Source: a virus. Taken from it: a stretch of 33,789 bases of DNA. Every line of letters begins with the position of its first letter. Position 1 is the stretch's first letter. Location: positions 1 to 33,789 of the IMG/VR virus record IMGVR_UViG_3300025168_000315; one strand, 5' to 3'. The notes under the pieces are model-generated. The model was given only the letters and a program-made list of their open reading frames with translations. It had not been told where the DNA came from and did no database searches. Below are positions 4,968-33,789 of this stretch, one piece after another. Both the position numbers and the translations under genes were made by a program.

Positions 4968-5204
4968 TCATAGAATTCTCCATACACGCACCCCCAGAAA
5001 CCCACTTTCTACCCTTATATCTACTTTAAGTACCCATTCCTTAGCATTAAACACTACTTTAAGCTGTTTCTTCGCTTTTGTAGTGTTTATACATGGTATG
5101 AACGCAGAAGCGCCGACTACCATATCGTCCCACTCCACGGTTATCTTTACCCCATCAGGGTATAGGTCATACGCCCGTAGTATCTCTAGGTTCTTCGTCT
5201 TCAT
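4968..5204 (-). CDS. small conserved-looking phage protein, unknown function
   Basis: This encodes 78 residues and is the last gene of the leftward operon. Its first 38 bases overlap the 3' end of the primase-helicase gene, which suggests translational coupling because no clear Shine-Dalgarno precedes the ATG. The protein has an even mix of charged and hydrophobic residues (NLEILRAYDLYPDGVKITVEWDD near the N-terminus, a VRVWRIL C-terminus) and looks like a small compact beta-rich domain, with no membrane segment or catalytic motif. It resembles short hypothetical proteins seen beside primase genes in marine phages, from memory only. No function can be assigned. Confidence 0.7.
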   Translation of the reverse strand: MKTKNLEILRAYDLYPDGVKITVEWDDMVVGASAFIPCINTTKAKKQLKVVFNAKEWVLKVDIRVESGFLGVRVWRIL

Positions 5205-7938
5205 CTAAGTCAAACTTCATAACTAGTACGTCAGCCGCAGGGAGAACTAATTTGGTACCCTTACCTAATCTAACTTTCTCTCGTTTACCGTCACAGTGTT
5301 CTTTTATCTGCTTGACTAAGTACCCATAATTTATCTGTAGTTCACCACACCAATTTTTGAGTATCTTAGGTACCACGTAAAACTTCTTAGTATCAGGTTC
5401 GTATCTTGCAACTAACTTACCCCTAGCCATTACATCAGGTATAACTAAATCATCTAGCCCATTACCATGCATCTTACGTAGGTCTTGTGTGCTCTCTATC
5501 TGCAGGATGTTACTTATATGCTCACTGAAGAAATCGTTCATTATGTCAAATACTGAGGCATCACTTGTTTCTGTATTACGTTTGTTCTGAGGAAGTAGTA
5601 CCTCTATTACCCATTTGAATATCTTTTTTATCGGGAAGTTATGTAGCCCTGCGTGTTTTGCCAGTATTAACCCAGACATGGTAGCTGCTATATGTGCAGA
5701 CCAGAAACGGTTTTCCTGACTCAATGTACCTTCTTTATCCACATACTTTTTAACTTGTTTAGTAAGTGCTTCAGCTTCCTCTAAGTGATTCATTATATAT
5801 TGTACGAAGGGTATACCTGCGGTACCAAACTGCTTGTATTTAACTGCCCCTTCAAACTCATAAGTCTCTTCTATAGAATCAAACAGGTGTTTCACATTAG
5901 GTACATAACACTCTAGCACCCTCTGTGCCTCTGCTTTGGGCATAGCTTTAGCCATACTCACACGTTCGATAATACTAGCGTTACCTGTAGTGTTAGATAG
6001 TAAGCTCCAAGCATGCCCCCTAAACCTTTCTACATTACTACTTGATGCCATGCGAGCACGTTGCTTACCAGAGGTAAACTGGTAGATAAGGTCAGAAGCT
6101 TGCTTGGGGGTAAGGTTAGTTATCTCGTCTATGCACCAAGGTAAGCTGTGGTATATCTCCCCACGGTTCATCTTACTTAGAAAGGTGTCCTCCTTATCCA
6201 TTATAAGTCTCTCTGGGTTCCCCCATATACCTGTAGCGGTAATCATAGCCGTAGTTTTAGCTACCCCTGAGTCTAAATTATGTAGGTGCATAGCAGCACA
6301 GTTAGCGTTAAAGAACTCCATAAGAACTGAACCAAACCCTGTACCTAAGACATATTGGTATAGTTCTAACCCATCTTTATTCCAAAAATCTATAGTCTCT
6401 TTCCACTCTTCTAGACTACCTTTAGGTTCAAAAGCGTCAAATAGACCTATAGTGTTATTAGATGGGGGGTTAAACTCTATACCGTCTGCGGTTATCTTCT
6501 GGTTACCTAGTACGAATGCCTCCATCTTAGGGCTAGTCCAGCCGAACTGCCTGTGTGCATCTTGAGCTACGCTGTTAGCTTGTAGTTCATTTATCCAACT
6601 AGTTGTGTAAGACATCAGATCATCCATTTTAGTAACAGCTACTCCCTGAGAAGCTACTACTTTTCTAAACTCCTCCCTAGAAGTAATAGCTGCTAGAGGT
6701 ATAGTGAATTCACGTACCCCATCTCTAGGTAGATGTAACCGCATAACGGCGCTCTCCCCTAGTTCTGGATCGTGAATTCTTTTAACTACGTATAGGTCAT
6801 TATGGTAAATAAGTTTCTCATCTACATCCCCATCTGCCGTAGAAGAGCGTAAAAACACTCCCCCATTAGCCCCTCTAAAATACGGGGGAGGGTAGTCAGG
6901 TATTGAAGAACTGGTTTCAGCTTCTTTGAAGCCATTACCTAATACAATAGGGGATTTAACTTTCCCCCAATTTGGGCAACTAGGACATATATCAGGACTA
7001 AACTCATCAAACTTAGCACAGGTGTATGGCCCTTTGATTGGACCATATTTCTTAACCGTCTCTTCCTCTGAATAATTAGGGTGTTTTTTAGATAGTTTTC
7101 TAGCTGCCTTATCTCCATCACTACAGAATCTAGCTATAGAAAGCCCTGCTCTCCACATAGGCTCACTAGTATTCTCTTGGTCTGTCATTATCAGACTTAA
7201 CTGCTCACACCCACTACCTGCATTAGTCTTCTTAATTATGTCTATAAAACGTGACTCTCTGCTACCAAGTAAGGCATCCATAACTGCGCTCTTGGGGGAG
7301 CCTTTTGCTCTTGGTATAGGGGTTTGTTCTACACCGAAGAACCTAGAGAATGTATCAAAGCTTAAAGGTTCAGCGAATTTACTTATAAGTTTTACTAATG
7401 CTGGAGGAGTAGTTTTGTGGTTATGGGTTAACGGGATACGTAGTACCCTAGCAGTATCTGCGGTAACCGCAGGGTCTGCATATACCTTATTTTTGGAAAG
7501 TACTTCCTTAAAACTCCTTGCTACTGGTAACCATTCTTCTGGAAGTACTGCTTCTTCTAAAGGCCAGTATGCATGTATGCCCCTACCAGAGTTTAGTATC
7601 GTAGGTTTGGGTACACCTTTAGCTATACAGAAATCTTTAAGCGATAAAAGAGCTTCTTCCTGTGATTCGTAATCTTTGCTAGGCCCACAATCTAGGTCTA
7701 CAAAAAAAGATTTTAGTTTATGTACATTGGATGATGTCCTAGACTCGGACGTTATAAACGTAGATAGTGCAAAATAGGTATCCCAACCCTCGCTATCTAG
7801 TCTGTATGCGGTTGCTAATAGGTCTGTAGTATTGTCAAAAAACTTTTGTGTTATTTTGTTTGCTTTCGAATTAGAAGCGAATAGACAATACGAGCCGTCA
7901 CTACATAGCACACTATTTAAAAATAGTTCTGTTTCCAT
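5167..7938 (-). CDS. primase-helicase (AEP-like primase fused to DUF927-type helicase)
   Basis: The 923-residue protein should prime and unwind DNA at the phage fork. The N-terminal third looks like an archaeo-eukaryotic-type primase: FFVDLD at 78-83 supplies the metal-binding aspartates (D81, D83), GRGIHAYW at 118-125 the conserved histidine, and DTARVLRIP at 161-169 the arginine-bearing strand. A cysteine cluster (C307, C318, C321) fits a zinc knuckle. The C-terminal half has a Walker A variant (SGVAKTTA, 557-564) and a Walker B-like WCIDEIT (601-607), matching the DUF927 helicase style. The start codon follows a structured terminator and has only a weak ribosome-binding site. It lies downstream of the SSB unit and overlaps the next small gene. 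The assignment rests on motif reading; the helicase subfamily is less certain than the overall primase-helicase call. Confidence 0.88.
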   Translation of the reverse strand: METELFLNSVLCSDGSYCLFASNSKANKITQKFFDNTTDLLATAYRLDSEGWDTYFALSTFITSESRTSSNVHKLKSFFVDLDCGPSKDYESQEEALLSLKDFCIAKGVPKPTILNSGRGIHAYWPLEEAVLPEEWLPVARSFKEVLSKNKVYADPAVTADTARVLRIPLTHNHKTTPPALVKLISKFAEPLSFDTFSRFFGVEQTPIPRAKGSPKSAVMDALLGSRESRFIDIIKKTNAGSGCEQLSLIMTDQENTSEPMWRAGLSIARFCSDGDKAARKLSKKHPNYSEEETVKKYGPIKGPYTCAKFDEFSPDICPSCPNWGKVKSPIVLGNGFKEAETSSSIPDYPPPYFRGANGGVFLRSSTADGDVDEKLIYHNDLYVVKRIHDPELGESAVMRLHLPRDGVREFTIPLAAITSREEFRKVVASQGVAVTKMDDLMSYTTSWINELQANSVAQDAHRQFGWTSPKMEAFVLGNQKITADGIEFNPPSNNTIGLFDAFEPKGSLEEWKETIDFWNKDGLELYQYVLGTGFGSVLMEFFNANCAAMHLHNLDSGVAKTTAMITATGIWGNPERLIMDKEDTFLSKMNRGEIYHSLPWCIDEITNLTPKQASDLIYQFTSGKQRARMASSSNVERFRGHAWSLLSNTTGNASIIERVSMAKAMPKAEAQRVLECYVPNVKHLFDSIEETYEFEGAVKYKQFGTAGIPFVQYIMNHLEEAEALTKQVKKYVDKEGTLSQENRFWSAHIAATMSGLILAKHAGLHNFPIKKIFKWVIEVLLPQNKRNTETSDASVFDIMNDFFSEHISNILQIESTQDLRKMHGNGLDDLVIPDVMARGKLVARYEPDTKKFYVVPKILKNWCGELQINYGYLVKQIKEHCDGKREKVRLGKGTKLVLPAADVLVMKFDLDEDEEPRDTTGV

Positions 7939-8036: not shown

Positions 8037-9359
8037 CTATTCATCCCATTCATCTATTAGATCGTCTAATGAATCTTCTTTAGGTGGGGCTTTCTTACTC
8101 TTTACTATAGCTTTTGGCTCTTCGGGTTCGTCAGGCTCCTCATCTACTTTAGCAGGTGTATCACCCACTGCTGTAAAGGAATGACCTTCTTCACCTTCTT
8201 CAGACCCATAACCTTCTTGGGCAGTGAAACTGTTGGATACAACTTTTTCAGCTAACGCGATAACCTGTACGGCTCTAGGTCTTAAAGATACTCCACTACC
8301 CATAGCAGGATTAGACCAAGCATAGAAACCTACTTCTATATTTACGGTACTACCAGTAGTTAACTGAAAGTCTTCTGGTAGTGGTTCCAAGTTTGCTTTG
8401 TATTGCTTGGGTTTAGGAGTCGGACGGTCATTATAGGCCGCTTTAACTTTGCACTGTGTTTTAAACACTGCGTTCTTTTCTTTTTTACTACCCTCTATAA
8501 TAGTAAACCTATCATCAAACTCACCCCAAGATTCTTCAGCGTTCTCCTCATAGAAAGCTTTCATCTCTTTACGTAGCTTTATAGCTTCGCTGTAGGGTAT
8601 TTTAAGATCAATGCAAAATTCCGCGCCATCTGTCTTAGCGTCACAAGGTTGGCTTCTGTTAGCTGCCTTGTCAAAGTAGTAGGGTTGGTCAAGCTTGGGC
8701 CAAAGTGCTTCGGCCCCTTTTATCTGGTGGTTCATTGTGTTCTCCTCAGAACTAAAATTAAATGTATAGTCCGTAGAGTAGTCGGTAGTTATAGCCCCAA
8801 TAGTATCCTTGTGACTTATCATAGAAACTACTTGTGCTACCTCACACTCCTGTAACGGACGGTTTGGTGCAAAATATAACTTAGGCACCATGCTGTTTTT
8901 GTCAAAAAAAATCCTTGTGTATATAGATTCAGCGGAAGTACCTCGTCCGTTTAAGAACTTTGCGTATTCCTGCAAGGGCATATTCTTACCCTTAGCCTTA
9001 CCAAAAATAGAATTGGCAGGTACTTGTATCTGGTATACAGTGTCTAGACCGTCTTCAAACATGACAGCTATTTTCTGTGAGAATCGGCAAGCCCGACCCC
9101 CACTAGAACTGCTCCCCCGTACATTCTGACTACAATCAATGCACCTATGTGCTTGTTTGTTTTCTAACAGAACACTGCTGTGGGGTTGTTGCGTATCAGT
9201 AGACCAACATACAGGCTTCTGAAAACTATTAAGGTCAAAACTATTTTGGTAAAAAGCCCTAGATACAGGTGCCGCATTGACAACTACTACCTCTACTTCA
9301 TCACCAAAACTATCATTCCCAGTTTCAAAGTTACCTGTACGTATACTTAATCTACGCAC
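8037..9359 (-). CDS. two-domain single-stranded DNA-binding protein (gp2.5-like C-terminal half)
   Basis: This encodes 440 residues. Residues 1 to about 200 form a first domain with cysteines at 51, 73, 76 and 91 that could bind zinc. Residues 209-440 carry a second domain whose core (GSTVNIEVGFYAW, then GSGVSLRPRAVQVIAL) reads like the OB-fold ssDNA-binding proteins of the T7 gp2.5/DUF2815 type. It ends in a long acidic tail (DDLIDEWDE), the usual protein-recruiting feature of phage SSBs. The start is a GTG that overlaps the TAG stop of the HTH gene by one base. A full Shine-Dalgarno (GAGGAG) and ATG lie inside the frame at the domain junction (ATG at 8735), so a separate 232-residue SSB may also be made. 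It is the last gene of a unit with its own promoter and terminator. Confidence 0.8.
   Translation of the reverse strand: MRRLSIRTGNFETGNDSFGDEVEVVVVNAAPVSRAFYQNSFDLNSFQKPVCWSTDTQQPHSSVLLENKQAHRCIDCSQNVRGSSSSGGRACRFSQKIAVMFEDGLDTVYQIQVPANSIFGKAKGKNMPLQEYAKFLNGRGTSAESIYTRIFFDKNSMVPKLYFAPNRPLQECEVAQVVSMISHKDTIGAITTDYSTDYTFNFSSEENTMNHQIKGAEALWPKLDQPYYFDKAANRSQPCDAKTDGAEFCIDLKIPYSEAIKLRKEMKAFYEENAEESWGEFDDRFTIIEGSKKEKNAVFKTQCKVKAAYNDRPTPKPKQYKANLEPLPEDFQLTTGSTVNIEVGFYAWSNPAMGSGVSLRPRAVQVIALAEKVVSNSFTAQEGYGSEEGEEGHSFTAVGDTPAKVDEEPDEPEEPKAIVKSKKAPPKEDSLDDLIDEWDE
8733..8747 (-). promoter_or_regulatory. internal ribosome-binding site and start inside the SSB gene
   Basis: On the - strand GAGGAG (8742-8747) is followed six bases later by ATG (8733-8735), in frame with the long gene. 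The codons before it (FNFSSEENT) link two distinct domains. The arrangement looks like an ordinary gene start whose upstream neighbour has lost its stop codon, or like a deliberate dual start giving full-length and OB-only proteins. Confidence 0.65.
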
Positions 9360-9616
9360 TAAAAGTCTTCGTCAAGCGCAGCTATACCTGTAAATTCGTC
9401 AGGCTCAGACTCCGCAAAAAGTTGCTCACCTGCCTCTACGAGTTCACCCCTTAGATGTTTCTCTATAGCGGGTATATCAAAACGGTAAGTAGTATCAGCT
9501 TTGACGTAGCATGACCTGTCTATTAGACCTTTCTTTACCCACAGCCTTACAGTAGGCTCAGATATATCAAAAAACTTAGCAACGTCATGTACGTTAGAGT
9601 ACTTAGATTCACTCAT
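9359..9616 (-). CDS. MerR/excisionase-type helix-turn-helix protein
   Basis: This encodes 85 residues. Residues 8-33 (VHDVAKFFDISEPTVRLWVKKGLI) form the characteristic helix-turn-helix of the MerR/excisionase (HTH_17) group, and residues 41-55 (DTTYRFDIPAIEKHL) give the wing and the following helix. The C-terminal 25 residues are acidic. The fold suggests a small DNA-binding regulator or recombination directionality factor; no integrase is visible here, so a regulator is the safer reading. The start ATG lies inside the last bases of the Gam-like gene (ATGAGTGA, 8-base overlap) and its TAG overlaps the GTG of the SSB gene, so the three are translated from one message. Confidence 0.8.
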   Translation of the reverse strand: MSESKYSNVHDVAKFFDISEPTVRLWVKKGLIDRSCYVKADTTYRFDIPAIEKHLRGELVEAGEQLFAESEPDEFTGIAALDEDF

Positions 9617-10086: not shown

Positions 10087-10115
10087 AATATACGTTACGT
10101 TATCTACTTAGTCAA
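10087..10115 (-). promoter_or_regulatory. sigma70-type promoter for the Gam-HTH-SSB unit
   Basis: On the - strand TTGACT (10110-10115) is separated by exactly 17 bases from TATATT (10087-10092). Transcription would start near 10080 and read into the Gam-like gene at 10049. The -35 box overlaps the last codons of the SNF2 gene, so the unit can be transcribed independently of the polymerase operon. Confidence 0.7.
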
Positions 10116-11643
10116 GTATTTCGTTATATAATTCTAGTATTTGTGAGTGTATATTTATTCTGTTATTTAAAAGTGAGTATATACGCTTCTCTACATCAGA
10201 ACCTTGCAATTGAACTACTGTACATTTGTGGTCTTGTCCCGCTCTATGGATTCTTGCGTTGGCTTGAGCGTAAGTTTCTAAACTACTAGTTGGCCCCCAC
10301 CACACAATTGTATTCGCTGCTGTTAGGGTTACCCCGTGAGCGGCAGACTGAGGTTGTACTACTAAAACCTTTGGATCTTCTTCCTCTTGAAACTTCTTGA
10401 ATATCTCTGTACGTCTAGTAGCTGGCACATCCCCCCGTATTATAGCGGTGGTTATTTTGTCTGCTTCTAGTTTCCCTACTATTATGTCTATCGTATGTCT
10501 GAAAGGTACAAACACTAATACCTTCTTACTAGACTCATCAATAACTTCTCTAAGAGCCTTGTACCTGTGCCTCATATCAAACTCTAGAGCTTCCCCATCG
10601 TCGGTATAGATTGCCCCTGCGGATACTTGTAGTAGTTTATTCATGTTAACTGCGGCATTGGGGGCGGTTATCTGGTTGTCCGTAGTCTGCATCACCATAT
10701 GGTTCTTTAACTGCGCGTAGTACTTCTTCTGTTGGCGAGTTAGTTCCACTTCTCGTTTGACATATACTATGTCCGGTAGGTCAAGGCACTGGTCTTTCGT
10801 GTACCGGATAGCAGGTTGTAGTATCCTATGTACGGTCTCTACCGCATCCTCTCTAGGAAACCACTTAAACTGGTTGATCCTAAGCATTACCATGTCACGG
10901 AAGGAACTAAAGAATTTAGGTACTAACTCTGGGTTTATTAGTTTAGCCAACCCATAAGCATCTAGGGGGGATTGCGCTGCGGGAGTACCTGTCATCATCC
11001 ATAACCAAGTATTTGAGGATACTAGTTTATTGAGTACCTTCCACCGTCTAGTCTGCACGTTTTTATAATGTGTAGCCTCATCGGCTATTATTAAATCAAA
11101 ACCTCCTTTGGCTATATCGTCAGCTACTATCTCTACCCCGTCATAGTTTATGATTACAAAGTCTGCGCCTTGATTGATTACTTTCCTACGTCTTTCAGAA
11201 GAACCATAAGCTATATCTACACTTCTGTGCATTGCAAAAGTAAAAAGGTCTGCTCTCCACGCACTATCCATGATAGATAGAGGGCATATAACTAATACTC
11301 TTTTCACCTTACCTTCTTTCATTAAGTAGTCACTTGCCCATATTGCAGATGCTGTCTTACCTGTACCCTGTTCGTTGAAACAGAAAGCGCGTTTGTTTAA
11401 CGTCAAGAATGCTGCGGTGTCTTTCTGGTGTTCAAATGGTTTATGCTTACCCGTCCACTTATACTTAGATAGTATAGGGGAGGGCACGTTTATATTTAGG
11501 TTCTTCAGTACGTGTACTTCGTCTAACCCCCAGTTAACAAGTACCTTGTTATCTACTAGCTCTTTGCTTTTAGGTATTACGTCTGTTACTTTTTTGGGGT
11601 TACGTAGTCTTAGTAGTACGGCTTTATCTTTGACTATCTGCAC
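10108..11643 (-). CDS. SNF2-family DNA helicase/translocase
   Basis: The 511-residue protein is a compact SNF2-type superfamily 2 ATPase. It has EQGTGKT (91-97) as Walker A, LIIADEATHYKN (184-195) as the Walker B/DEAx box with DEAT in place of DEAH, a TGTPA motif III, and ARIHRAGQ near 467-474 as the arginine-bearing motif VI. No accessory chromatin-type domains are present. Phage SNF2 proteins of this size are usually found in replication and recombination modules, and it lies between a nuclease-polymerase cluster and the SSB unit. The start is GTG, overlapping the TAG stop of the upstream basic protein by one base. Confidence 0.9.
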   Translation of the reverse strand: MQIVKDKAVLLRLRNPKKVTDVIPKSKELVDNKVLVNWGLDEVHVLKNLNINVPSPILSKYKWTGKHKPFEHQKDTAAFLTLNKRAFCFNEQGTGKTASAIWASDYLMKEGKVKRVLVICPLSIMDSAWRADLFTFAMHRSVDIAYGSSERRRKVINQGADFVIINYDGVEIVADDIAKGGFDLIIADEATHYKNVQTRRWKVLNKLVSSNTWLWMMTGTPAAQSPLDAYGLAKLINPELVPKFFSSFRDMVMLRINQFKWFPREDAVETVHRILQPAIRYTKDQCLDLPDIVYVKREVELTRQQKKYYAQLKNHMVMQTTDNQITAPNAAVNMNKLLQVSAGAIYTDDGEALEFDMRHRYKALREVIDESSKKVLVFVPFRHTIDIIVGKLEADKITTAIIRGDVPATRRTEIFKKFQEEEDPKVLVVQPQSAAHGVTLTAANTIVWWGPTSSLETYAQANARIHRAGQDHKCTVVQLQGSDVEKRIYSLLNNRINIHSQILELYNEILD

Positions 11644-11915: not shown

Positions 11916-12586
11916 TAGTTTCTCCCGTTATGGGCGCAGTCTAAAACTGCACAATGATTTCTACATAGTCCACTAGGTTTTGCGTTCCACACATTGTTGT
12001 CGAAACAAGTCTGCATATCTGAAAATGCCTCCGTCCACGAATCCCAAAGAATGCTTTGGTCTTTTACAGAGTACTTTTCTTTTATCAACTCGTTACATAC
12101 TACAAAAAGTAGTCCTCCTTTTACTTCTTTAACTACTGGAAAGTGTTTGAATACAGCTAACGCCATAAGCTCTAACTGCCCCTTATCTGCGTAGCGTGTA
12201 GACTTCCCAGTTTTGTAATCTATAACCCACGCAAGGTGATTTTCTGTATCTAGTATAATTAGGTCTGCTATACCCCGCCACCAAACATCTTCAGAATCAA
12301 ACCCACAAGGTTCCAACTTTTCATTTAACCCCATTCTAAACTCGCACAGCTTGGCTCCCTTTATAGAGACTAGTGCATCCAATCCCTTACGAGTGTATTC
12401 AAATTCAGGGGGTAAAGGTGTAGCTTCTTTTACATAATTCTCAGCCGCCTCATGCATCTGCGTACCGTACCGCATAGCGTCTGTTTCCCCTTCTACGTAC
12501 TCCTTGAGTACTTTCATGTGGTAGAACTGCTTCGGGCATTGTTGGAAAGCTTTGAGCTTACTGAATGACCAAGGGGTTATACTCAT
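11915..12586 (-). CDS. Cas4/RecB-like PD-(D/E)XK exonuclease with probable Fe-S cluster
   Basis: The 223-residue protein shows the full PD-(D/E)XK nuclease pattern: H45, D108 in GIADLIIL, D123 and K125 in VIDYKTGKS, and Q137. C17 (QCPKQFY) together with C208, C212 and C217 at the C-terminus matches the split four-cysteine arrangement that holds a 4Fe-4S cluster in Cas4 and AddB-type nucleases. It probably resects DNA during phage recombination or replication. Its ATG overlaps the TGA of the polymerase gene by four bases (ATGA), so it is co-translated with the polymerase. Confidence 0.88.
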   Translation of the reverse strand: MSITPWSFSKLKAFQQCPKQFYHMKVLKEYVEGETDAMRYGTQMHEAAENYVKEATPLPPEFEYTRKGLDALVSIKGAKLCEFRMGLNEKLEPCGFDSEDVWWRGIADLIILDTENHLAWVIDYKTGKSTRYADKGQLELMALAVFKHFPVVKEVKGGLLFVVCNELIKEKYSVKDQSILWDSWTEAFSDMQTCFDNNVWNAKPSGLCRNHCAVLDCAHNGRN

Positions 12587-14409
12587 TCACATTCTCCGTA
12601 TCTTTTACCTATACCGGATTCACAATCCAGTGGTAGTCCTGTAGCCCAATCAGGTACCCACCGCATACTTTCCTCAACTGACAACTGTGCCTCTGAAACC
12701 TCTGTCTCGGGTACGCAGCATATAATTGAGTCGTGTACTGTCATCACGATATGGTACTTACGTCCTATTTTTAACATCTGCTCCCCGATTATACAACGCG
12801 CTAAAGCTTGGCAAACATTCTCTACTACCTTACCTCCGTATATGTTTGTCGGTCCTTTCCTAGTTTTGTAAGTGAACTGCACCCCTCTCTCGTTTTGTTC
12901 AAACTCTAGGTTTTCATACCGTAACAATAGTCTGGAAGGTAGTCTTATAGCCGTCTTTTTAGGTACTATTTCTATAACACCATCTAAACCAAACTTACCT
13001 TTGTTACCACGGGTAAATTCTGTAAGTACGTTCTGACCTTCTCTCCACAGTTGACCTATCTTCCAGTTGCTATCCCTATACACACTAATAACGCGCCTAG
13101 CTTCTTTCAAATCCATATCAAAACCAAAAGAAGCAAGTTGATCTTTAAATCTTACAGCCCCCATGCCATAGCCAGCACCAAGGATAGTAGTCTTACCGAC
13201 GAACCGTTGATCTTTAGTGATGTCTTCTTCAGAGACATTATATATTTTAGATGCCATCTGTTTGTACACATCCTTACCCGCAGCAAACGCTTCAGTAAGG
13301 TCATCTTGCCCTGCAAGCCAAGCCAACACCCGCGCTTCGATCTGAGAGGAGTCACAATCAATCAGCGTATACCCTTTCGGAGCTAAGATACTGTTCTTTA
13401 GTTTCTTCCCATTGTCCCCCCTACTAGGTAGGTTCTGTAGGTTGATCTTGTCTGAACCACCCCACCTACCTGTGTGTGCAGCGTAGTATCTTATAGGTAC
13501 AGGGAGTGTTCCACGTTTGGCTATATCAATAAACCGCTGTGCTCTTGTCTCCTCCAAGGTACTCTTGTTACCTAACCTTGCTGCTACTAAAGCTTGTACC
13601 CTCTCATCATCGTGACACTCTAGTTCCTTTAATCCTTCGTCGGTCTTCGCAAAAGCAAACGCTTTCTTGCCCGTAGTAAGACTTATCTTTGTAGGAGGTA
13701 CTACTCCCACACCTTCAAGAAGTTCCGCAAACTTAGCGTTACTCATCAAGGCTTTCTTGGTAGCGTTAACTTTAGATAGTAGGTCATCTTTCCTAAACTT
13801 TACATTGTCTAAGTGAAACTCTAATAACCCTAAATCTAGTTCTAGTATAGGGTCTAGGAACATACGTAAAGTTATATCTATTATCTTTAACTCTTGTTTA
13901 GGGAATCCTTTACCCATCTTGCTAAACAATCTATACGCTAACTCTACATCGTTGATGCAGTAGTCCCCGTAACGGCTAAGTTCTTCGTCGGTGAAGTCTT
14001 TTCTATATTTACCTTTAGCAGCGACAACTTCAGTACCTTTCTTACCTAACCCATACCGTTCTGTTAATGCATTAAGCGATGCCTTAGCGTTTACTCCGTG
14101 TATAGCCCTAGCCATACACAAGGTGTCTGCCCATACTTTAGGGTTTATACCAAACAACCAATTAAGTATGGCACCGTCGAACATGGTGTTATGTGCTACC
14201 ACCATGCTGTTCCCCCAATCAAAAGTATCTAGGTATCGTTGGAATTGTTTATGTGTACCACTGGCCCATTCTGTAGGGCCGTTGTTAACTTTTATAGCGA
14301 CCCCTATAACTTCAAATCTACTATCTCTAACGTACTCTTCTGTAGTCATCTTAGACAGTGAAAAGTCTTGGTCGTAATACGTTTCAAAGTCTACTGTTAT
14401 CAAGTCCAT
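12583..14409 (-). CDS. family A DNA polymerase with 3'-5' exonuclease
   Basis: The 608-residue replicative polymerase has the proofreading domain at the N-terminus (D7 and E9 in VDFET, D78 in NTMFDG, Y150 and D154 in YCIND). Palm motif A is DCDSSQIEAR (351-360), motif B is R402 to Y414 (RFVGKTTILGAGYG), and motif C is H559-D560-S561. The residue equivalent to E. coli Pol I Phe762 is leucine (L410); in marine phages Leu762 has been linked to slower or lysogeny-capable lifestyles. Motif C reads HDS instead of the textbook HDE. There is no 5'-3' exonuclease domain, as expected for phage PolA. The gene overlaps the nuclease gene downstream by 4 bases. Confidence 0.95.
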   Translation of the reverse strand: MDLITVDFETYYDQDFSLSKMTTEEYVRDSRFEVIGVAIKVNNGPTEWASGTHKQFQRYLDTFDWGNSMVVAHNTMFDGAILNWLFGINPKVWADTLCMARAIHGVNAKASLNALTERYGLGKKGTEVVAAKGKYRKDFTDEELSRYGDYCINDVELAYRLFSKMGKGFPKQELKIIDITLRMFLDPILELDLGLLEFHLDNVKFRKDDLLSKVNATKKALMSNAKFAELLEGVGVVPPTKISLTTGKKAFAFAKTDEGLKELECHDDERVQALVAARLGNKSTLEETRAQRFIDIAKRGTLPVPIRYYAAHTGRWGGSDKINLQNLPSRGDNGKKLKNSILAPKGYTLIDCDSSQIEARVLAWLAGQDDLTEAFAAGKDVYKQMASKIYNVSEEDITKDQRFVGKTTILGAGYGMGAVRFKDQLASFGFDMDLKEARRVISVYRDSNWKIGQLWREGQNVLTEFTRGNKGKFGLDGVIEIVPKKTAIRLPSRLLLRYENLEFEQNERGVQFTYKTRKGPTNIYGGKVVENVCQALARCIIGEQMLKIGRKYHIVMTVHDSIICCVPETEVSEAQLSVEESMRWVPDWATGLPLDCESGIGKRYGECE

Positions 14410-16404: not shown

Positions 16405-16433
16405 TGGTAGTCCTGTGTAATTTTAGTTTTGAA

Positions 16434-16452
16434 GTTAGGGACGGTCCCTAAC
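16434..16452. promoter_or_regulatory. 19-bp palindrome, operator copy 1
   Basis: GTTAGGGACGGTCCCTAAC has perfect 9-base arms around one central base. It ends 29 bases before the ATG at 16404. The flanks (on the - strand ACTTGGA before and TTCAAAACTA after) are shared with the other - strand copies. It could be a repressor site or, in RNA, a leader hairpin with an 8-bp stem. Confidence 0.7.
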
Positions 16453-16517
16453 TCCAAGTAAGTAGTTGTGGTGGATGATGGTATTGGTACCATTTTATGG
16501 GGAAATAGTTAAACCCT

Positions 16518-17908: not shown

Positions 17909-17944
17909 AGTTATTCCCTTACTTGTAGTTGTAGTAGTTTTGAA

Positions 17945-17963
17945 GTTAGGGACGGTCCCTAAC
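17945..17963. promoter_or_regulatory. 19-bp palindrome, operator copy 2
   Basis: This is the same perfect GTTAGGGAC-G-GTCCCTAAC sequence, ending 36 bases before the ATG at 17908 and starting in the 74-base gap after the preceding gene. The downstream flank on the - strand (TTCAAAACTAC) matches copies 1 and 3. Confidence 0.7.
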
Positions 17964-17982
17964 TCCAAGTGCAGTGGGTTAT

Positions 17983-19276: not shown

Positions 19277-20515
19277 TTATACTTTGATGTGTACAGTCTT
19301 ACCTATGGCGGGTCGGGCTTGCTCGTTGTTAGCTACACACCACAACACCGGACAGTCCCAGTTACCCCAACCTCCAAACAATTCACCGTCAGTTAACACC
19401 GCGCATGCTGTAGGTATGATCTTCTTATCTCTAAGATACTTGGGTACACAACGTACATCTGTACCACCACCACCTTTGGGAACTAGGTTACGTATAACAC
19501 CGTCTATGTCATCTAGCTTGTCTTGCTGAAACTCTTCATGCCCAGCCACTTCGGTGTCCCACCATATTAGGTGCAACGTAGTGGGGCGTAGAGTCATAGC
19601 TATCTTCTTGAACTCACCTAACCACTGCCCAAGGAACTCGTAACATGAACCCGACATATCAGGTGCTAGAACTAGGTGCTCCATCTTCGTACCTAACGTA
19701 GTAGGCATATACACTCCTTGGCCTAGATGCCTACGGTTAGGTCTGGACCATGTAGAGTACTCCTTACCAGAACATACTTGTTGTGCCCAATCCTTGGCTA
19801 CTTTCTCCCAAGGTACTTTCGGAGTCATTAGCTCAGTTATGGTACGGTTAGACTGTAGACCTAACCTACCAGCCACCATGTTACCTTGGCGAACTGCACT
19901 CTCTATCTCTCGTGCTAAGTCTTCTTTCTCTACCGCATCTAGTTCTTCAGCACCCTCCCAATCGTGCTCGTCTATAGGGTTGTCGCCTCCATCTTCGTAA
20001 TCTTCTGAGACGTCTTCGCCTTCATCCTGTCGCTGCTTCAAGTCCCAGAATATCTTGGCTATATCCCAACCGATGTACTTGGGTGTACAGAAACCGCCCT
20101 CGGGCATAGTTGCGAACCCACTAGGCCACTTACGCCTAGCTTCGGGTACGTTATCCATGATCCAAGCATTCTCTATGGTGAGAGTATTGTTGATCCACTC
20201 ATCACACGATATACCCGCTAACTTAGGATCTATCTTGAATAGGTGTAGGTATATGTGTAGGTGTCGTCCTAGCTTGTGGTAGTTCTCATGCAGTATCAGG
20301 AACCGAAACTCTGCATCGTTTAGTTCGGGTATAAACCGCGATCCGTAGATGACATCTCTACCATTGGTCATAGCACTAGGTACGCTGTCGTCCAATGCAC
20401 TTATACCTAGCGCGACTACTCCTGCTAGTGGGGCGTATATATCCACCCCGTATATATCAGTGACGTTCTTCTGTAGTCTCTGCTCTACAGTCAGTTGTGG
20501 TTGTAGGTTTAACAT
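19277..20515 (-). CDS. metallopeptidase-like/VWA protein (DUF2201 type)
   Basis: The 412-residue protein starts at the ATG at 20515, preceded by AAGGAG. The N-terminal domain carries H76-E77-x-x-H80 in FLILHENYHKLGRH, the zincin-like signature of the DUF2201 N-terminal domain. A highly acidic linker follows (about residues 163-196). The C-terminal domain is von Willebrand A-like with a complete metal-ion adhesion site: D286-x-S288-x-S290, T352 in GGGGTD, and D376 in LTDGE. In this family the protein pairs with a MoxR-type AAA+ ATPase, whose gene lies immediately upstream here, 10 bases away. Together they probably remodel or activate a target protein using ATP and a divalent metal. The peptidase motif may be structural instead of catalytic. 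Confidence 0.88.
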   Translation of the reverse strand: MLNLQPQLTVEQRLQKNVTDIYGVDIYAPLAGVVALGISALDDSVPSAMTNGRDVIYGSRFIPELNDAEFRFLILHENYHKLGRHLHIYLHLFKIDPKLAGISCDEWINNTLTIENAWIMDNVPEARRKWPSGFATMPEGGFCTPKYIGWDIAKIFWDLKQRQDEGEDVSEDYEDGGDNPIDEHDWEGAEELDAVEKEDLAREIESAVRQGNMVAGRLGLQSNRTITELMTPKVPWEKVAKDWAQQVCSGKEYSTWSRPNRRHLGQGVYMPTTLGTKMEHLVLAPDMSGSCYEFLGQWLGEFKKIAMTLRPTTLHLIWWDTEVAGHEEFQQDKLDDIDGVIRNLVPKGGGGTDVRCVPKYLRDKKIIPTACAVLTDGELFGGWGNWDCPVLWCVANNEQARPAIGKTVHIKV

Positions 20516-20525
20516 CTGTATCTCC

Positions 20526-21632
20526 TTATCGCTTATCGGCTGAATACATGTGGACGTTACGGTCCGCAAACTCTTGGAACTTTCTGTTGTTCATTATCAG
20601 TGACTGCTTAGGGTGCTTGCTGGTAGCAGCGTTTAGGAAGTATGACTTACAGTTATCGTTTAGACGGTCAACGTATGTAACCCATGCATCTACTGTCTCA
20701 CGCTCGATACTCTGAATACCCCGATGCACTATCATCATCAACGCACTAGCTCCGGTAGGAATCATGGCAGTGAGTGGTGAGGTATGTATGTCATCTAGTT
20801 TTGGTAGGTCTGCTATCAACCGGCTGTAGTTGAATAACTCTGAACCAGCCACCCTACCTACGGCACCTACTAGTGCAGACTCCAATGTCGCATTGTCTAG
20901 CCCGCCCGACTCGGCTGCGTACATGATGTCGGAACATGCATGCATCGACCTGTTGGTGACAAACGCTGTCTCTGCTCTATCAGGATGGAAGATGTACTCG
21001 TTATCTTCTGGTCGCGCTACCTCTTGGAATGACTGCATTAATTGCGGGTTCTCCATGACGTAAGAGTTGACAATATAGTGACAGTCTTCGGGTATACCGA
21101 AATTCTCTACCCACTCTACGTTAGTGCTTTTGCGTACTGGTACTTCTATCAGCCGGTTACCGTGGTGAGCCATGAGTGAATCACCTACACCCTCTTCACC
21201 AAGGTTCGAGGTAGCAAACACAATAGAGTCAGGGTGTAGTTTCTTATCTCCTAGTATTCTCTCTAACATAACTCGTAAGAGTGCGTTCTTTACAGGTGGC
21301 AGACACTTCTTTAGCTCGTCTATCATTATCACTACAGGTACATCTAGGTGGAACCCTAGCTCTTCGTTCGTAGCACTTGAGAAGTAGTCGTTACCCTCTA
21401 GATCCTTGAACTTGGGTATCACGATGTCACCCGCATCCTTGGTGGTGCCGTCGAAATACACCAGCTTATGGTCGGGTAACAGCTTACCTATCATCTTGAG
21501 TAACGTAGACTTGCCGGTACCCATGTGCCCTGCGGCTAAGATAGTACGTTTCATACCTAGCGTTACGATTAAGAGCGCCACTTGCTCTAGTGAGAGTGCG
21601 TAAGATCGTTGGTTCAATTGCATAGTTGTCAT
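20526..21632 (-). CDS. MoxR-type AAA+ ATPase
   Basis: The 368-residue protein has Walker A GHMGTGKST (35-43), Walker B VVIMIDEL (100-107), sensor 1 FATSN (139-143) and a helical lid domain, the layout of the MoxR/CbbQ clade. These ATPases act as chaperones together with a VWA-domain partner, and the VWA gene follows directly. The start ATG at 21632 has AGGA nine bases upstream; a second ATG three codons later is possible. A 19-bp palindrome lies 33 bases before the start and overlaps the end of the preceding DUF3150-like gene. No transmembrane segment, so a cytoplasmic complex is expected. Confidence 0.92.
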   Translation of the reverse strand: MTTMQLNQRSYALSLEQVALLIVTLGMKRTILAAGHMGTGKSTLLKMIGKLLPDHKLVYFDGTTKDAGDIVIPKFKDLEGNDYFSSATNEELGFHLDVPVVIMIDELKKCLPPVKNALLRVMLERILGDKKLHPDSIVFATSNLGEEGVGDSLMAHHGNRLIEVPVRKSTNVEWVENFGIPEDCHYIVNSYVMENPQLMQSFQEVARPEDNEYIFHPDRAETAFVTNRSMHACSDIMYAAESGGLDNATLESALVGAVGRVAGSELFNYSRLIADLPKLDDIHTSPLTAMIPTGASALMMIVHRGIQSIERETVDAWVTYVDRLNDNCKSYFLNAATSKHPKQSLIMNNRKFQEFADRNVHMYSADKR

Positions 21633-21665
21633 AATATTTTCCTAGTTAATAAAAGTAGTTTTGAA

Positions 21666-21684
21666 GTTAGGGACGGTCCCTAAC
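21666..21684. promoter_or_regulatory. 19-bp palindrome, operator copy 3
   Basis: This is an identical core to copies 1, 2 and 4. It overlaps the TAG stop (21680-21682) of the DUF3150-like gene and ends 33 bases before the AAA+ start. Just upstream on the - strand lies TTTCAACTGGAAA, a near-palindrome related to the site at 16195. Confidence 0.7.
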
Positions 21685-22789
21685 AGTTTCCAGTTGAAAG
21701 AGGCTTCAGTACGTTAAGCACGGAGGTAATAGCATCTACTACCTCGATACGTAACGCTTCACTATCACGTAATGATTCTGCATCGACGTTGTATAGTGCG
21801 GCCTCTAGTTTATGCACCGATAGTTCTATACTTGGTTCTTTGTTGAAGTTGAAGTTGCGTAGGGTGTACATCTTGTCCCTAGCTCTATCAGGTAATGTAC
21901 TGTGGAACCCGGTAGCTTTGTCCCCGAACTTGTAATCTAGTTTTGTACGTATGTCGGTTAGCTCGTCTATCGAATCACGGTATATACCGGACATCATCGC
22001 GGCGTTTTGCTTGCCGTAGAACTTCTTGTAGCTAGACTCTAGATACTCGCGTGACTCGTCTAGAATGCTACCGATGAAGTTGTCGCCGTTGTCGGCTTCG
22101 GCTAGTGGTATCAGCACATAGGTGAAACTGAACTTAGCCCGGATAGCATGCTTACTAGGGTAGTCACTGCGTTTGAAGTTGTCGCCCAGACTACTGCCAC
22201 TATTCCTAGACTGCTCTGCTTCTCGCTCTACGGAATCTTCGAACGTATCACATAACAGATCTAGTTCCTCGTAGAAGTCCTGATAGAACCTGTCCATCTC
22301 AGGCCGAATATCCATGATAGATATAGCGGGTATGAGTCGAGGTCCACGATCTAGCCAAGGTTGGGTGTACTGTGAGTGTACTTTCCTAGCAGCACGTTCT
22401 ATCTTCTTTAACTTCTGTAGGTGGGGGTTGTCATCTAGCAGAGACTTGATGAGCTTGAACTTCTGCGGATCACCACGGAACCCTATGGCTACGTCAGCAC
22501 TCGCATCACGGTCGGTCTTCTTACCATCCCAGAGGGTCACGTTTAGGTGACTGAGTTTGGCGTGAGTACCTAGTGATATCTCTACTAGTTCTGGTTCTAC
22601 CCGCGCTGCTTCGGCTCCTGCTTCGGGCCAAGCAATCGGGCCTTCGGTGTTAACAGGTACATCAAATACTTCTGACTCATCGTTAGCTATCGTGCGCTCT
22701 ACTATGTCAGGCCAAGCGTTTGTGCTTTCAGTGTTAGAAACTACTTCTGGTACTGCTTTACGTTTTAAGATGTCGGATAATTTACCCAT
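21680..22789 (-). CDS. DUF3150-like protein, first gene of the MoxR-VWA cassette
   Basis: The 369-residue protein starts at the ATG at 22789 (GGAG upstream). The frame is open for 37 more codons, but these cover the promoter leader and palindrome. The N-terminal 70 residues are acidic and low in structure with two similar segments (NTESTNAWPD and NTEGPIAWPE). The rest is helical: VTLWDGKKTDRDA, FKLIKSLLDDNPHLQKLKKIERAARKVHSQ, then DRFYQDFYEELDLL, and a YPSKHAIRAKFSFTYVLIPL strand. This order resembles DUF3150 proteins, which accompany AAA+ and VWA genes in phages; the match is from memory and tentative. It is transcribed from the strong promoter at 22889-22917. Confidence 0.65.
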   Translation of the reverse strand: MGKLSDILKRKAVPEVVSNTESTNAWPDIVERTIANDESEVFDVPVNTEGPIAWPEAGAEAARVEPELVEISLGTHAKLSHLNVTLWDGKKTDRDASADVAIGFRGDPQKFKLIKSLLDDNPHLQKLKKIERAARKVHSQYTQPWLDRGPRLIPAISIMDIRPEMDRFYQDFYEELDLLCDTFEDSVEREAEQSRNSGSSLGDNFKRSDYPSKHAIRAKFSFTYVLIPLAEADNGDNFIGSILDESREYLESSYKKFYGKQNAAMMSGIYRDSIDELTDIRTKLDYKFGDKATGFHSTLPDRARDKMYTLRNFNFNKEPSIELSVHKLEAALYNVDAESLRDSEALRIEVVDAITSVLNVLKPLSTGNC

Positions 22790-22819
22790 TGTCGTTCTCC
22801 ATGTTAAGAATGTTTTGAG

Positions 22820-22838
22820 GTTAGGGACGGTCCCTAAC
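22820..22838. promoter_or_regulatory. 19-bp palindrome, operator copy 4
   Basis: This is the same perfect palindrome, ending 30 bases before the ATG at 22789 and 50 bases downstream of the -10 box at 22889. A repressor bound here would sit in the transcribed leader and not on the promoter itself, as phage roadblock (stoperator-like) sites do. Confidence 0.75.
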
Positions 22839-22888
22839 TCCAAGTGAAACCTAGTGGTTACTTCAAACAAACTACCACCAGAACTACT

Positions 22889-22917
22889 ATTATACCCCAT
22901 CCCCTTATTGAGGTCAA
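22889..22917 (-). promoter_or_regulatory. consensus sigma70-type early promoter
   Basis: On the - strand TTGACC (22912-22917) and a perfect TATAAT (22889-22894) are separated by exactly 17 bases. Transcription would start near 22882, leaving a leader of about 93 bases that contains operator copy 4 before the DUF3150-like gene. It is the best promoter match in the window. Confidence 0.85.
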
Positions 22918-22949: not shown

Positions 22950-23335
22950 CATATAATGTTCTGTTTAAACGTATAATGTTCTTATAATGTAGTGAGCTAA
23001 CTTATTGATAAACAAAGAATGTTCGAATGTTCGGCTTCTGAAGGAGAGAGAGCTAGGTAGAACTAGAATTGCAGATGGGAGGTGAATACGAACATTAGGG
23101 GGGGTCCACCCAATGTCTCTTCTCTCTATTTTGTAAAAAACGAACATTACTAACTAACAATATCATATATATAATATATAAGAACATTTAGTAAAGAATA
23201 GGTAGGACATCTACTCACATTTAACCACATCTACTAATGTTTGTAATGTTCGTTTTCTGTTTTACAAAACCGAACATTGCACGTTTTTAGCGAACATTAG
23301 GGCTATTTTGCGAACATTACACCGAACATTACCAG
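22950..23335. repeat. iteron array in AT-rich non-coding region, candidate replication origin
   Basis: At least twelve copies of a CGAACATTA-type motif (either strand) lie in about 380 bases. The starts are 22954, 22974, 23017, 23025, 23089, 23141, 23181 (variant), 23244, 23271, 23291, 23311 and 23323. The copies at 23271, 23291 and 23311 are spaced exactly 20 bases, two helical turns; two at 23017 and 23025 are tandem. A stretch of nearly pure A/T lies at 23158-23181. No credible gene covers it. Iterons beside an AT-rich block at the junction of the early and late halves are the classic appearance of an initiator-driven origin. A repressor-binding array is the alternative. Confidence 0.7.
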
Positions 23336-23347
23336 AACAACCAAAAT

Positions 23348-23530
23348 ACTTCGTGCTACTCAAAAACTGGTCTCAGTTGAGGGTGGGGTTTACTTGCTAT
23401 TAGGGACCGTCCCTAACTTCAAAACTACTACCACACTTCGTGCTACTGAATAACTGGTCTCAGTTGAAGTTAGGGACCATCCCTAAACCCAAATCAAAAC
23501 CACACTTCGTGCTACTGAATAACTGGTTTC
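23348..23530. repeat. tandem composite repeat carrying operator copies 5 and 6
   Basis: The segment ACTTCGTGCTACT occurs three times (23348, 23435, 23504), each followed after 5-6 bases by ACTGGTYTCA. Palindromes lie between them at 23399-23417 (ATTAGGGACCGTCCCTAAC) and 23469-23487 (GTTAGGGACCATCCCTAAA), in the inverted orientation relative to the copies over the leftward genes. A fourth ACTTCGTGCTAC stands alone at 16152-16163. No gene is present. The degenerate units suggest duplication of a control element, or a small mobile palindromic repeat. Confidence 0.65.
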
Positions 23531-23542
23531 AAAAAAGCGAGG

Positions 23543-23580
23543 CCAAAAAAAACCTGATTAGAAATTAATCTAATCAGGTT
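23543..23580 (-). terminator. strong rho-independent terminator of the three-gene unit
   Basis: A 12-bp perfect stem (23551-23562 with 23569-23580) and 6-base loop are followed on the - strand by a run of U residues (A-run 23545-23552). It lies 6 bases after the stop of the 83-residue gene and insulates the candidate origin from leftward transcription. Confidence 0.92.
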
Positions 23581-23585
23581 GGGGA

Positions 23586-23837
23586 TTACTTAGGATTGTC
23601 TACTACTCGTCCGGATTCAAAATAATGTTTACCTTGATAGTCTGATAGATGCATGACTTGCGACATTGAGTACTCGTCAAGAGTAATAGCGTTGGCAATC
23701 GTGCCTAGTTTATCCCATTCCGCATGGTGCCCAAAAGTAGGATGGCCGGCGGCGGCAATAGCCAATGTATCTAATGCTGCTAACATTTCCTTAACTACTT
23801 CTGGACCCAATAGAACGTATCCATTTTCTTTATTCAT
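23586..23837 (-). CDS. small unknown protein, last gene of a three-gene unit
   Basis: This encodes 83 residues with AAGGAAC before the ATG at 23837. The N-terminal part (VLLGPEVVKEMLAALDTLAIAAAGHP) is a helical segment, followed by a His-rich GHHAEWDKLGTIANAI and a polar end. There is no membrane helix of full length or known motif. Its leader is one of two identical 50-bp copies, and a strong terminator follows the stop. I do not recognise it. Confidence 0.7.
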   Translation of the reverse strand: MNKENGYVLLGPEVVKEMLAALDTLAIAAAGHPTFGHHAEWDKLGTIANAITLDEYSMSQVMHLSDYQGKHYFESGRVVDNPK

Positions 23838-23884
23838 AATCGTTCCTTAATAGTGGACCCCATTGCTGGGGTCCGATGAGTTTA
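23835..23884 (-). repeat. 50-bp direct repeat, leader copy A
   Basis: This is identical to 24071-24120. It contains, on the - strand, the stop of the upstream gene, a 7-bp hairpin (GGACCCC 23855-23861 with GGGGTCC 23868-23874, loop ATTGCT on the + strand), the ribosome-binding site AAGGAAC and the next ATG. It functions as an intercistronic leader. Confidence 0.9.
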
Positions 23885-24073
23885 GATAGTGTGTCTACTT
23901 TTCCTATTGGGTGATCTGGCGCACCAGATCATACCGGCCATTGATAGACCGGCGAGCGGCCCTGCTAGTATTGGATTCAATCCTGTACCGGCAGTGTTGA
24001 ACTCATACATTAGAAAAAACAATGTACAGGTTAAGGCAGTAAGTAACATGCCTGCAATAACTTGGATATTCAT
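23882..24073 (-). CDS. 63-residue membrane protein (two segments)
   Basis: The product begins MNIQVIAGMLLTALTCTLFFLMYEF, a first membrane helix, then GLNPILAGPLAGLSMAGMIW, a second, and ends in a basic tail (CARSPNRKSRHTI). Two helices with a short loop and a positive tail fit a small inner-membrane protein; a holin is possible but it is away from any lysin and in an early-type unit, so the call stays open. Ribosome-binding site AAGGAAC before the ATG at 24073, within the repeated leader. Confidence 0.7.
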   Translation of the reverse strand: MNIQVIAGMLLTALTCTLFFLMYEFNTAGTGLNPILAGPLAGLSMAGMIWCARSPNRKSRHTI

Positions 24074-24120
24074 AATCGTTCCTTAATAGTGGACCCCATT
24101 GCTGGGGTCCGATGAGTTTA
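24071..24120 (-). repeat. 50-bp direct repeat, leader copy B
   Basis: This is an exact second copy of the leader at 23835-23884, with hairpin arms GGACCCC 24091-24097 and GGGGTCC 24104-24110. It separates the 222-residue gene from the membrane-protein gene. Exact identity over 50 bases implies recent duplication or strong selection on the sequence. Confidence 0.9.
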
Positions 24121-24786
24121 TACTTCCGTTGGGAGTACTTTCGTTTTATGTACCGCCGCTGCTAACGACATCGTATGTTCCAGAGCGGTAATAAACGCGT
24201 CCATTGATGCGGCATCATAGGTTGCTTGAGTACCTTTATCAGCTGCCTTGATAGCTTTATCAATATCAGCCTTGGCGCTAGTCACCCTAGTAATAAAATC
24301 ACCAGTAACACGGGCACCGCCGGCGGTATCATCGTTAGACTTTCGCTTGAGCCATTTGGCGAAACGATTACGTAGATCCTTAGACACAGTACCTTTCAGC
24401 TTGCGGGATAGCACCGCCTCGTCGTAAGTACGCTTACAAATAAACTTGCCGTCCTCATCGATAACGTCGGACCCATCAAGTCTAGGATCATCCTTGAGCA
24501 TCAGTGACAACATATAACGTTCCGGATGCTTTGCCTTGAACAGGGTCACTTCGAAATCGTCGATATCATCAACCGTAAGTACAGGCGCTTTATCGTTTTT
24601 GGCGGTAGTCTTGAGCAATTGCTCTCGACTATTAACGCCGGCTTCAACAAGCATAGGGAATAAACCTTTCACATCCTTGCCCTTTACTGTCCCACCTTCA
24701 AGGTAAATGGTAGCGGTATGATCCGCTTTCGCCCATGTCGCGCCAGTAGTATTGATAGCGGACATATCTTTCTTTGCAATTGACAT
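24118..24786 (-). CDS. unknown protein, first gene of the three-gene unit
   Basis: This encodes 222 residues with AAGGAAC eight bases before the ATG at 24786. The N-terminal half is alpha/beta (THTATIYLEGGTVKGKDVKGL-like region, then VLTVDDIDDFEVTLFKAKH). The middle is basic (RKLKGTVSKDLRNRFAKWLKRK, about 129-150) and could bind nucleic acid. The end is a long alanine-rich helix pair. No family is recognised. Its base composition looks more balanced than the AT-rich early genes, and its unit is separately terminated, so it may be a later acquisition. An imperfect copy of the 19-bp palindrome lies about 130 bases upstream. Confidence 0.75.
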   Translation of the reverse strand: MSIAKKDMSAINTTGATWAKADHTATIYLEGGTVKGKDVKGLFPMLVEAGVNSREQLLKTTAKNDKAPVLTVDDIDDFEVTLFKAKHPERYMLSLMLKDDPRLDGSDVIDEDGKFICKRTYDEAVLSRKLKGTVSKDLRNRFAKWLKRKSNDDTAGGARVTGDFITRVTSAKADIDKAIKAADKGTQATYDAASMDAFITALEHTMSLAAAVHKTKVLPTEV

Positions 24787-33405: not shown

Positions 33406-33476
33406 ATGTAATCTATAATATTCTATCCCTGACAGGGGCATACTGCGCCTGACACTAGCCACGACAGGAGATACTC

Positions 33477-33789
33477 ATGGCGAATACAACTTTTAACGGC
33501 CCCGTCCGTTCCGAAAACGGTTTTGAAACCGTATCTAAAAATGCAACTACTGGTGAAATTACAATCATCAGTGGTAACAAAATGGCTACCGAAGCCCTTG
33601 GCTCTGCCGGTATAGAAGGCACTGCCGAACTCTATATTACTCAAGTAGAACGCTTTAAAAGTGACACCACTACTGATGTAAACATTGTTAAAACGACAAT
33701 CATGCTAGATCTTACTGGTCTTGCTTCTACCGCTGCTGGCGACATTATTGGTGATGCTGACACTGGAGTAGCCTATATAGGCCGTGTCA
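33477..33789 (+). CDS. structural protein, 3' partial
   Basis: An ATG at 33477 has AGGAG eight bases upstream and opens a frame that runs off the right edge with at least 104 codons and no stop. The product (MANTTFNGPVRSENGFETVS, then IEGTAELYITQVERF) is beta-rich and low in charge, like the capsid-adjacent structural or tail-associated proteins of marine phages. Its place after the capsid terminator fits the start of the tail or head-completion genes, which lie outside the window. Confidence 0.8.
   Translation, partial: MANTTFNGPVRSENGFETVSKNATTGEITIISGNKMATEALGSAGIEGTAELYITQVERFKSDTTTDVNIVKTTIMLDLTGLASTAAGDIIGDADTGVAYIGRV

Follow-up and report, generated by a model that had tools for sequence, protein, structure and literature searches.

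The window analyzed here is a fragment of a viral genome, a contig of 33.8 kb (33,789 nucleotides; IMG/VR record IMGVR_UViG_3300025168_000315), in which an array of twelve short repeated sites (iterons) was located at positions 22955–23331. Judging from its sequence and from its counterparts in related phages, this array is very probably the replication origin of the phage. It is likely to be an origin of the kind used by the Rep protein of the Staphylococcus aureus pathogenicity islands (SaPI), bound by a primase-DUF927 helicase which is encoded approximately 15 kb away. The origin reading is considered well supported because the layout of the array is conserved, its centre is AT-rich and it is associated with replication rather than packaging genes. 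An earlier note on this DNA had also proposed an origin but had seen no initiator of the usual type. This latter statement is probably wrong, because the primase-DUF927 protein of the window (5167–7938, minus strand) is homologous to a solved pathogenicity-island protein and possesses a predicted C-terminal winged-helix-like domain.

The Iteron Array

The array was defined by an exact pattern count, by simulations and by the recurrence of the same layout in relatives. Twelve exact copies of GAACATT lie within a gene-free region, as the earlier note had described, with minus-strand sites at 22955, 22975, 23018, 23026, and 23245 and plus-strand sites at 23090, 23142, 23182, 23272, 23292, 23312, and 23324. 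Only two copies were found in the remainder of the window (at 3498 and 28350). In 5000 simulated sequences, the 794-bp gene-free region contained a mean of 0.16 copies by chance and never more than three, and no 7-mer of any kind exceeded five copies in these simulations. The full sequence CGAACATTA is present at six of the twelve sites and is absent from the window outside the array.

The three plus-strand sites at 23272, 23292, and 23312 are indeed spaced by exactly 20 bases, and the same step separates the minus-strand sites at 22955 and 22975. While this phasing is real in the window, the basic step of the relatives was found to be 8–11 bp, with 20 bp representing two such steps. An AT-rich tract (23150–23195), identified from the sequence and from relatives as a candidate melting site, is located between the plus-strand site at 23142 and the facing minus-strand site at 23245.

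Conservation in Related Phages

The array was found at the same place in all 16 relatives that were identified by the large terminase subunit gene, terL (81–92% identity), and whose viral contigs extend at least 3.3 kb beyond terL on its upstream side. One array cluster was present per genome. For comparison, 66 distinct arrays with at least eight sites were assembled, many of them gathered by a pattern scan for twin sites. One layout is common to these arrays, namely minus-strand and plus-strand blocks with a spacing of 8–11 bp arranged around an AT-rich tract. Spacing peaks were seen in 54 of the 66, at 8, 42, and 10 bp between minus-strand sites and at 9–11 bp between plus-strand sites; the 8-bp spacing is partly selected because the scan picks twin sites, while the remaining sites and spacings are not selected. 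When aligned, the left part of the plan consists of a minus-strand block with 10-bp steps, a distance of 42 bp and twin minus-strand sites 8 bp apart. The right part consists of a central plus-strand site followed by TATATA, a minus-strand site, a distance of 28 bp and a plus-strand block with 10-bp steps.

In most relatives the AT-rich maximum lies in the middle of the array, and the TATATA beside the central plus-strand site is conserved. In 24 of the 66 AACATT arrays, the 30 bp with the highest AT content lie between a facing plus-strand and minus-strand site 88–123 bp apart. The two bases ahead of AACATT vary by phage (CG, GG, or AG, with GT or GC at locus L090), and the AACATT core itself is constant because of the search pattern used. 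A DNA similarity search of the region in isolated phages gave no match, and searches of viral contigs with the MoxR protein and with the protein encoded at 24118–24786 found nothing. Contig ends and the incompleteness of metagenomic contigs limit statements on presence or absence.

Association with Replication Rather than Packaging Genes

The arrays of the marine phages sit between DUF3150-MoxR-VWA genes and the terminase subunit genes terS and terL, with TerL identity down to 47%. In every relative the array precedes terS/terL by about 2 kb, a position that could point to a packaging (pac) site recognized by the small terminase subunit. Proteins of this type are able to bind repeated sequences. 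In addition, the contigs end at different places with respect to terL, as might be expected from headful packaging, but plain assembly breaks would fit this as well. However, the array does not move with terS/terL as a headful pac site would be expected to do. Five isolated phages with TerL proteins of 40–47% identity lack the primase-DUF927 gene, and no AACATT array was detected in the 21–31 kb examined of each. Conversely, GGAACATT arrays also occur at loci L130 and L200, where they lie within a replication module (VirE-VRR-NUC-SNF2) that has no related terL. The AT-rich centre and the facing iterons likewise suit an origin better, and a packaging role is therefore regarded as very unlikely.

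The same association was seen among contigs of approximately 50 kb or more. The primase-DUF927 gene was present in all six such contigs found by terL and in all four found by the array, and AACATT pairs were present in all three found by the primase-DUF927 gene. Common to the near-complete genomes are the primase-DUF927 helicase, a single-stranded DNA (ssDNA)-binding protein, a small helix-turn-helix (HTH) protein, an SNF2 helicase, nucleases, a family A polymerase, and terminase and portal genes. Across phage groups, then, the array accompanies replication genes and not packaging genes.

The Candidate Initiator

The candidate initiator is a protein of 923 amino acids which comprises a primase and a DUF927 helicase (Pfam DUF927, E-value 8e-19; PHROG primase/helicase). 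Over its helicase part it matches PDB entry 8tch, annotated as “Pathogenicity island protein” (1.2e-8). Residues 838–912 (5203–5427, minus strand) form the winged-helix-like domain in an AlphaFold2 prediction, with a mean predicted local distance difference test (pLDDT) score of 91.6 and the order strand-strand-helix-helix-strand-strand. This is the candidate iteron-binding domain; its PDB fold matches are weak, and most of them are DNA-binding domains of the winged-helix type (HSF, Skn7, and TcpK).

Genes of a replication module lie nearby on the minus strand. A Gp2.5-like ssDNA-binding protein (8037–9359; PHROG 112, 1.5e-12) adjoins the initiator gene and is kept in near-complete relatives, and Pfam matches identified an SNF2 helicase (10108–11643) and a family A DNA polymerase (12583–14409). 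Between these lies a gene (9359–9616) for a small MerR/HTH_17-like protein of 85 amino acids, which has weak Pfam matches. This protein, or one from the DUF3150-MoxR-VWA operon, might bind the iterons of the origin in place of the primase-DUF927 helicase, which would then only be recruited. The HTH protein is kept within the replication genes of near-complete relatives, and the DUF3150-MoxR-VWA genes lie beside most arrays, both of which would suit such a role. On the other hand, no relative of the HTH protein was found by tblastn in the collection of isolated phages, and several other isolated phages have iteron arrays together with a DUF927 or VirE helicase. It should also be noted that the published binder in the case of SaPI Rep is the C-terminal domain of the helicase itself (PMC7581432). 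Binding by another phage protein is accordingly considered unlikely, and the primase-DUF927 helicase is preferred as the initiator.

Iterons Associated with DUF927 and VirE Helicases in Isolated Phages

In isolated phages, the stretch 3′ of the DUF927 or VirE helicase gene was found to carry iterons with spellings other than AACATT. Among phages with a DUF927 helicase, these are AGGTAACCGA in THSA-485A (8–10 copies), TAGGTGAAACA in Epona (9–10 copies), GTAACAA in phiRg507T2_3 (seven copies) and, more weakly, GTAACA in Jekyll (six copies). Of these four phages, three have facing sets around an AT-rich stretch, approximately 95–107 bp apart. The helicase of THSA-485A matches 8tch (5e-28) and also 5dgk, annotated as “Active helicase” (2e-13). 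Among phages of the VirE type, Staphylococcus phage phi12 carries TGATGCAACA/TGATACAACA and Pasteurella phage PMP-GADVASU-IND carries GGGTGACAAA, while no strong array was found in Streptococcus phage Javan181. Like the array of the window, these arrays consist of clustered iterons in both orientations with twin sites 8–9 bp apart, but they differ in their spelling and in lying directly downstream of the helicase gene. Pseudomonas phage Rollin resembles the window in this last respect, having about ten copies of AAAGGTAG in a gene-free region far from its primase-DUF927 gene, whose product is 28.6% identical. No paper naming the arrays of these DUF927 and VirE phages as origins was found in the open-access literature.

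Phages of the HTVC023P type were tried as a direct comparison and set aside, as they have no primase-DUF927 protein and their repeats have other sequences. Two further repeat clusters were observed. Synechococcus phage MinM2 (L013, 13193–13545) carries nine copies of GTATGAC in two clusters of the same orientation at a gene-free early/late junction; it has no primase-DUF927 gene, and the clusters are possibly an origin of different spelling. Phage 023Pt_psg01 (L009, 10565–10780) carries seven copies of TGGCACA, with twin sites 9 bp apart, near the early/late junction.

Comparison with Known Replication Origins

The origins of phage-inducible chromosomal islands (PICI) consist of two iteron sets on either side of an AT-rich region (PMC6092414), and SaPI Rep reads the iterons of its origin through its C-terminal domain (PMC7581432). 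The window resembles these systems in having iterons on both sides of the AT-rich tract at 23150–23195, and the replicon that contains them also encodes a candidate initiator helicase belonging to the Rep/DUF927 family. As in the islands, this initiator would be a self-loading helicase; its sequence is related to theirs, as indicated by the match to 8tch and by DUF927, and the primase is fused or adjacent. The putative origin of the window is, however, more elaborate in plan, with about twelve sites and an additional AACTGGT repeat, and unlike those of the islands it is not located directly 3′ of the initiator gene (22955–23331 as against 5167–7938). Satellite islands of the PICI or SaPI kind carry an integrase and depend on a helper phage, whereas the window and its relatives encode the terminase, the portal, and genes of the capsid region of a tailed phage and are not such elements. 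Phage P4 offers a further parallel, its alpha protein being a primase-helicase initiator with short origin repeats, although alpha belongs to another helicase family. Alpha and its cognate ori are also mentioned in the literature (PMC6092414).

The putative origins of SCCmec elements are also similar, featuring direct repeats and an initiator helicase with a C-terminal DNA-binding domain (PMC7581432). Cch contains DUF927 and is related to the Rep of SaPIbov1; Cch2 is of another family, its C-terminal domain binds its repeats and a family A polymerase is encoded nearby, as in the window (PMC7581432). They differ in having only three short AAGTG iterons, directly after the Cch2 gene (PMC7581432).

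Several observations weigh against an origin of SaPI-Rep type in the window. The array lies approximately 15 kb from the primase-DUF927 gene, unlike in SaPI and PICI, and the same separation is seen in near-complete relatives. The fold matches of the C-terminal domain have best E-values of only 0.13–0.16, and Rhizobium phage RHph_TM3_14A encodes a related primase-DUF927 protein, yet no clear array was found in it. GC skew, which the earlier note had proposed as a check, flips near terS in six of nine genomes, 1.3–2.4 kb from the array; it adds no independent support and was rejected as evidence for an origin because it follows gene direction.

Proposed Mechanism of Initiation

By analogy with the work on SaPI and SCC elements, the C-terminal winged-helix-like domain of the primase-DUF927 helicase is expected to bind the iterons. 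Hexameric rings of the helicase would then assemble on both sides, the AT-rich tract would melt and the helicase would load itself and unwind the DNA. The fused primase domain would lay primers, which the family A polymerase of the phage would extend. Copying is likely to be bidirectional. It is a plausible but evenly balanced proposal that the origin acts far from the gene for its initiator, that it is extended by a strictly oriented AACTGGT repeat which possibly sets the direction of replication or the priming site, and that iteron spelling and initiator co-evolve. If the latter is the case, these phages would form many replicon types.

For a widespread group of marine phages, a replication start site and an initiator protein can thus be predicted. 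This suggests that the PICI/SaPI type of origin is a design common to phages whose helicases are of the DUF927 or VirE type, and satellites and phages may therefore share one replicon family.

Transcription Signals around the Array

The array forms the head of a leftward early operon. The earlier note had placed it between the early and late halves; three small minus-strand open reading frames (ORFs; 23586–24786) still lie between the array and the late plus-strand genes. A sigma-70-like promoter for the operon (TTGACC-17-TATAAT; 22889–22917, minus strand) was identified at the left edge of the region by a consensus scan, with 11 of 12 bases matching; the number of sigma-70-like sites in the region was not above that in shuffled sequences. 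A terminator-like hairpin (23551–23580, minus strand) would halt leftward transcripts ahead of the region. Proteins with DUF3150, MoxR-type AAA, and DUF2201/VWA domains are encoded at 19277–22900 on the minus strand, and their genes lie beside the array in most relatives.

Since a promoter lies at the left edge and most relatives likewise have the array heading the DUF3150 operon, the question arises of whether the sites are operators controlling the transcription of this operon. Such a role appears extremely improbable, considering that the twelve sites span 375 bp, occur in both orientations and surround an AT-rich tract, that this plan is fixed across phages and that similar arrays follow the helicase genes of other phages where no such operon lies.

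Flanking Repeats and Palindromes

A second, oriented repeat ending in AACTGGTYTC is present in three copies on the plus strand beside the putative origin (23345–23530), with units at 23345–23374, 23432–23461, and 23501–23530 and cores at 23365–23374, 23452–23461, and 23521–23530. One to four oriented units ending in AACTGGYHTC adjoin the array on its terS side, both in the window and in those relatives that were mapped. These repeats were counted on both sides, since the array looks alike in both orientations. The AACTGGYHTC core was confined to one flank in 54 of the 66 arrays and pointed outward, with 123 outward copies, none the wrong way round and one inside an array; variant AACTGGT repeats occur in several of the remaining 12. 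The repeat may be a priming site, a directionality element, the binding site of another protein or a packaging signal.

Two TTAGGGAC-type palindromes (23400–23416 and 23470–23486) lie between the AACTGGT repeats. In all, six palindromes of the form TTAGGGAC(C/G)GTCCCTAA were detected, at 16426–16459, 17937–17971, 21654–21686, 22812–22851, 23387–23425, and 23456–23496. The four outside the AACTGGT region are located at the starts of leftward genes, and it is possible that this type of palindrome represents an operator or a 5′ leader hairpin. Palindromes of other spelling seem to be present near the arrays of some relatives.

An Rfam scan of the array region found no RNA. Elsewhere in the window, a Mu-gpT-DE RNA (RF03012; 68.4 bits, 4.8e-14) was predicted on the plus strand at 33427–33479, immediately 5′ of the ORF at 33477.
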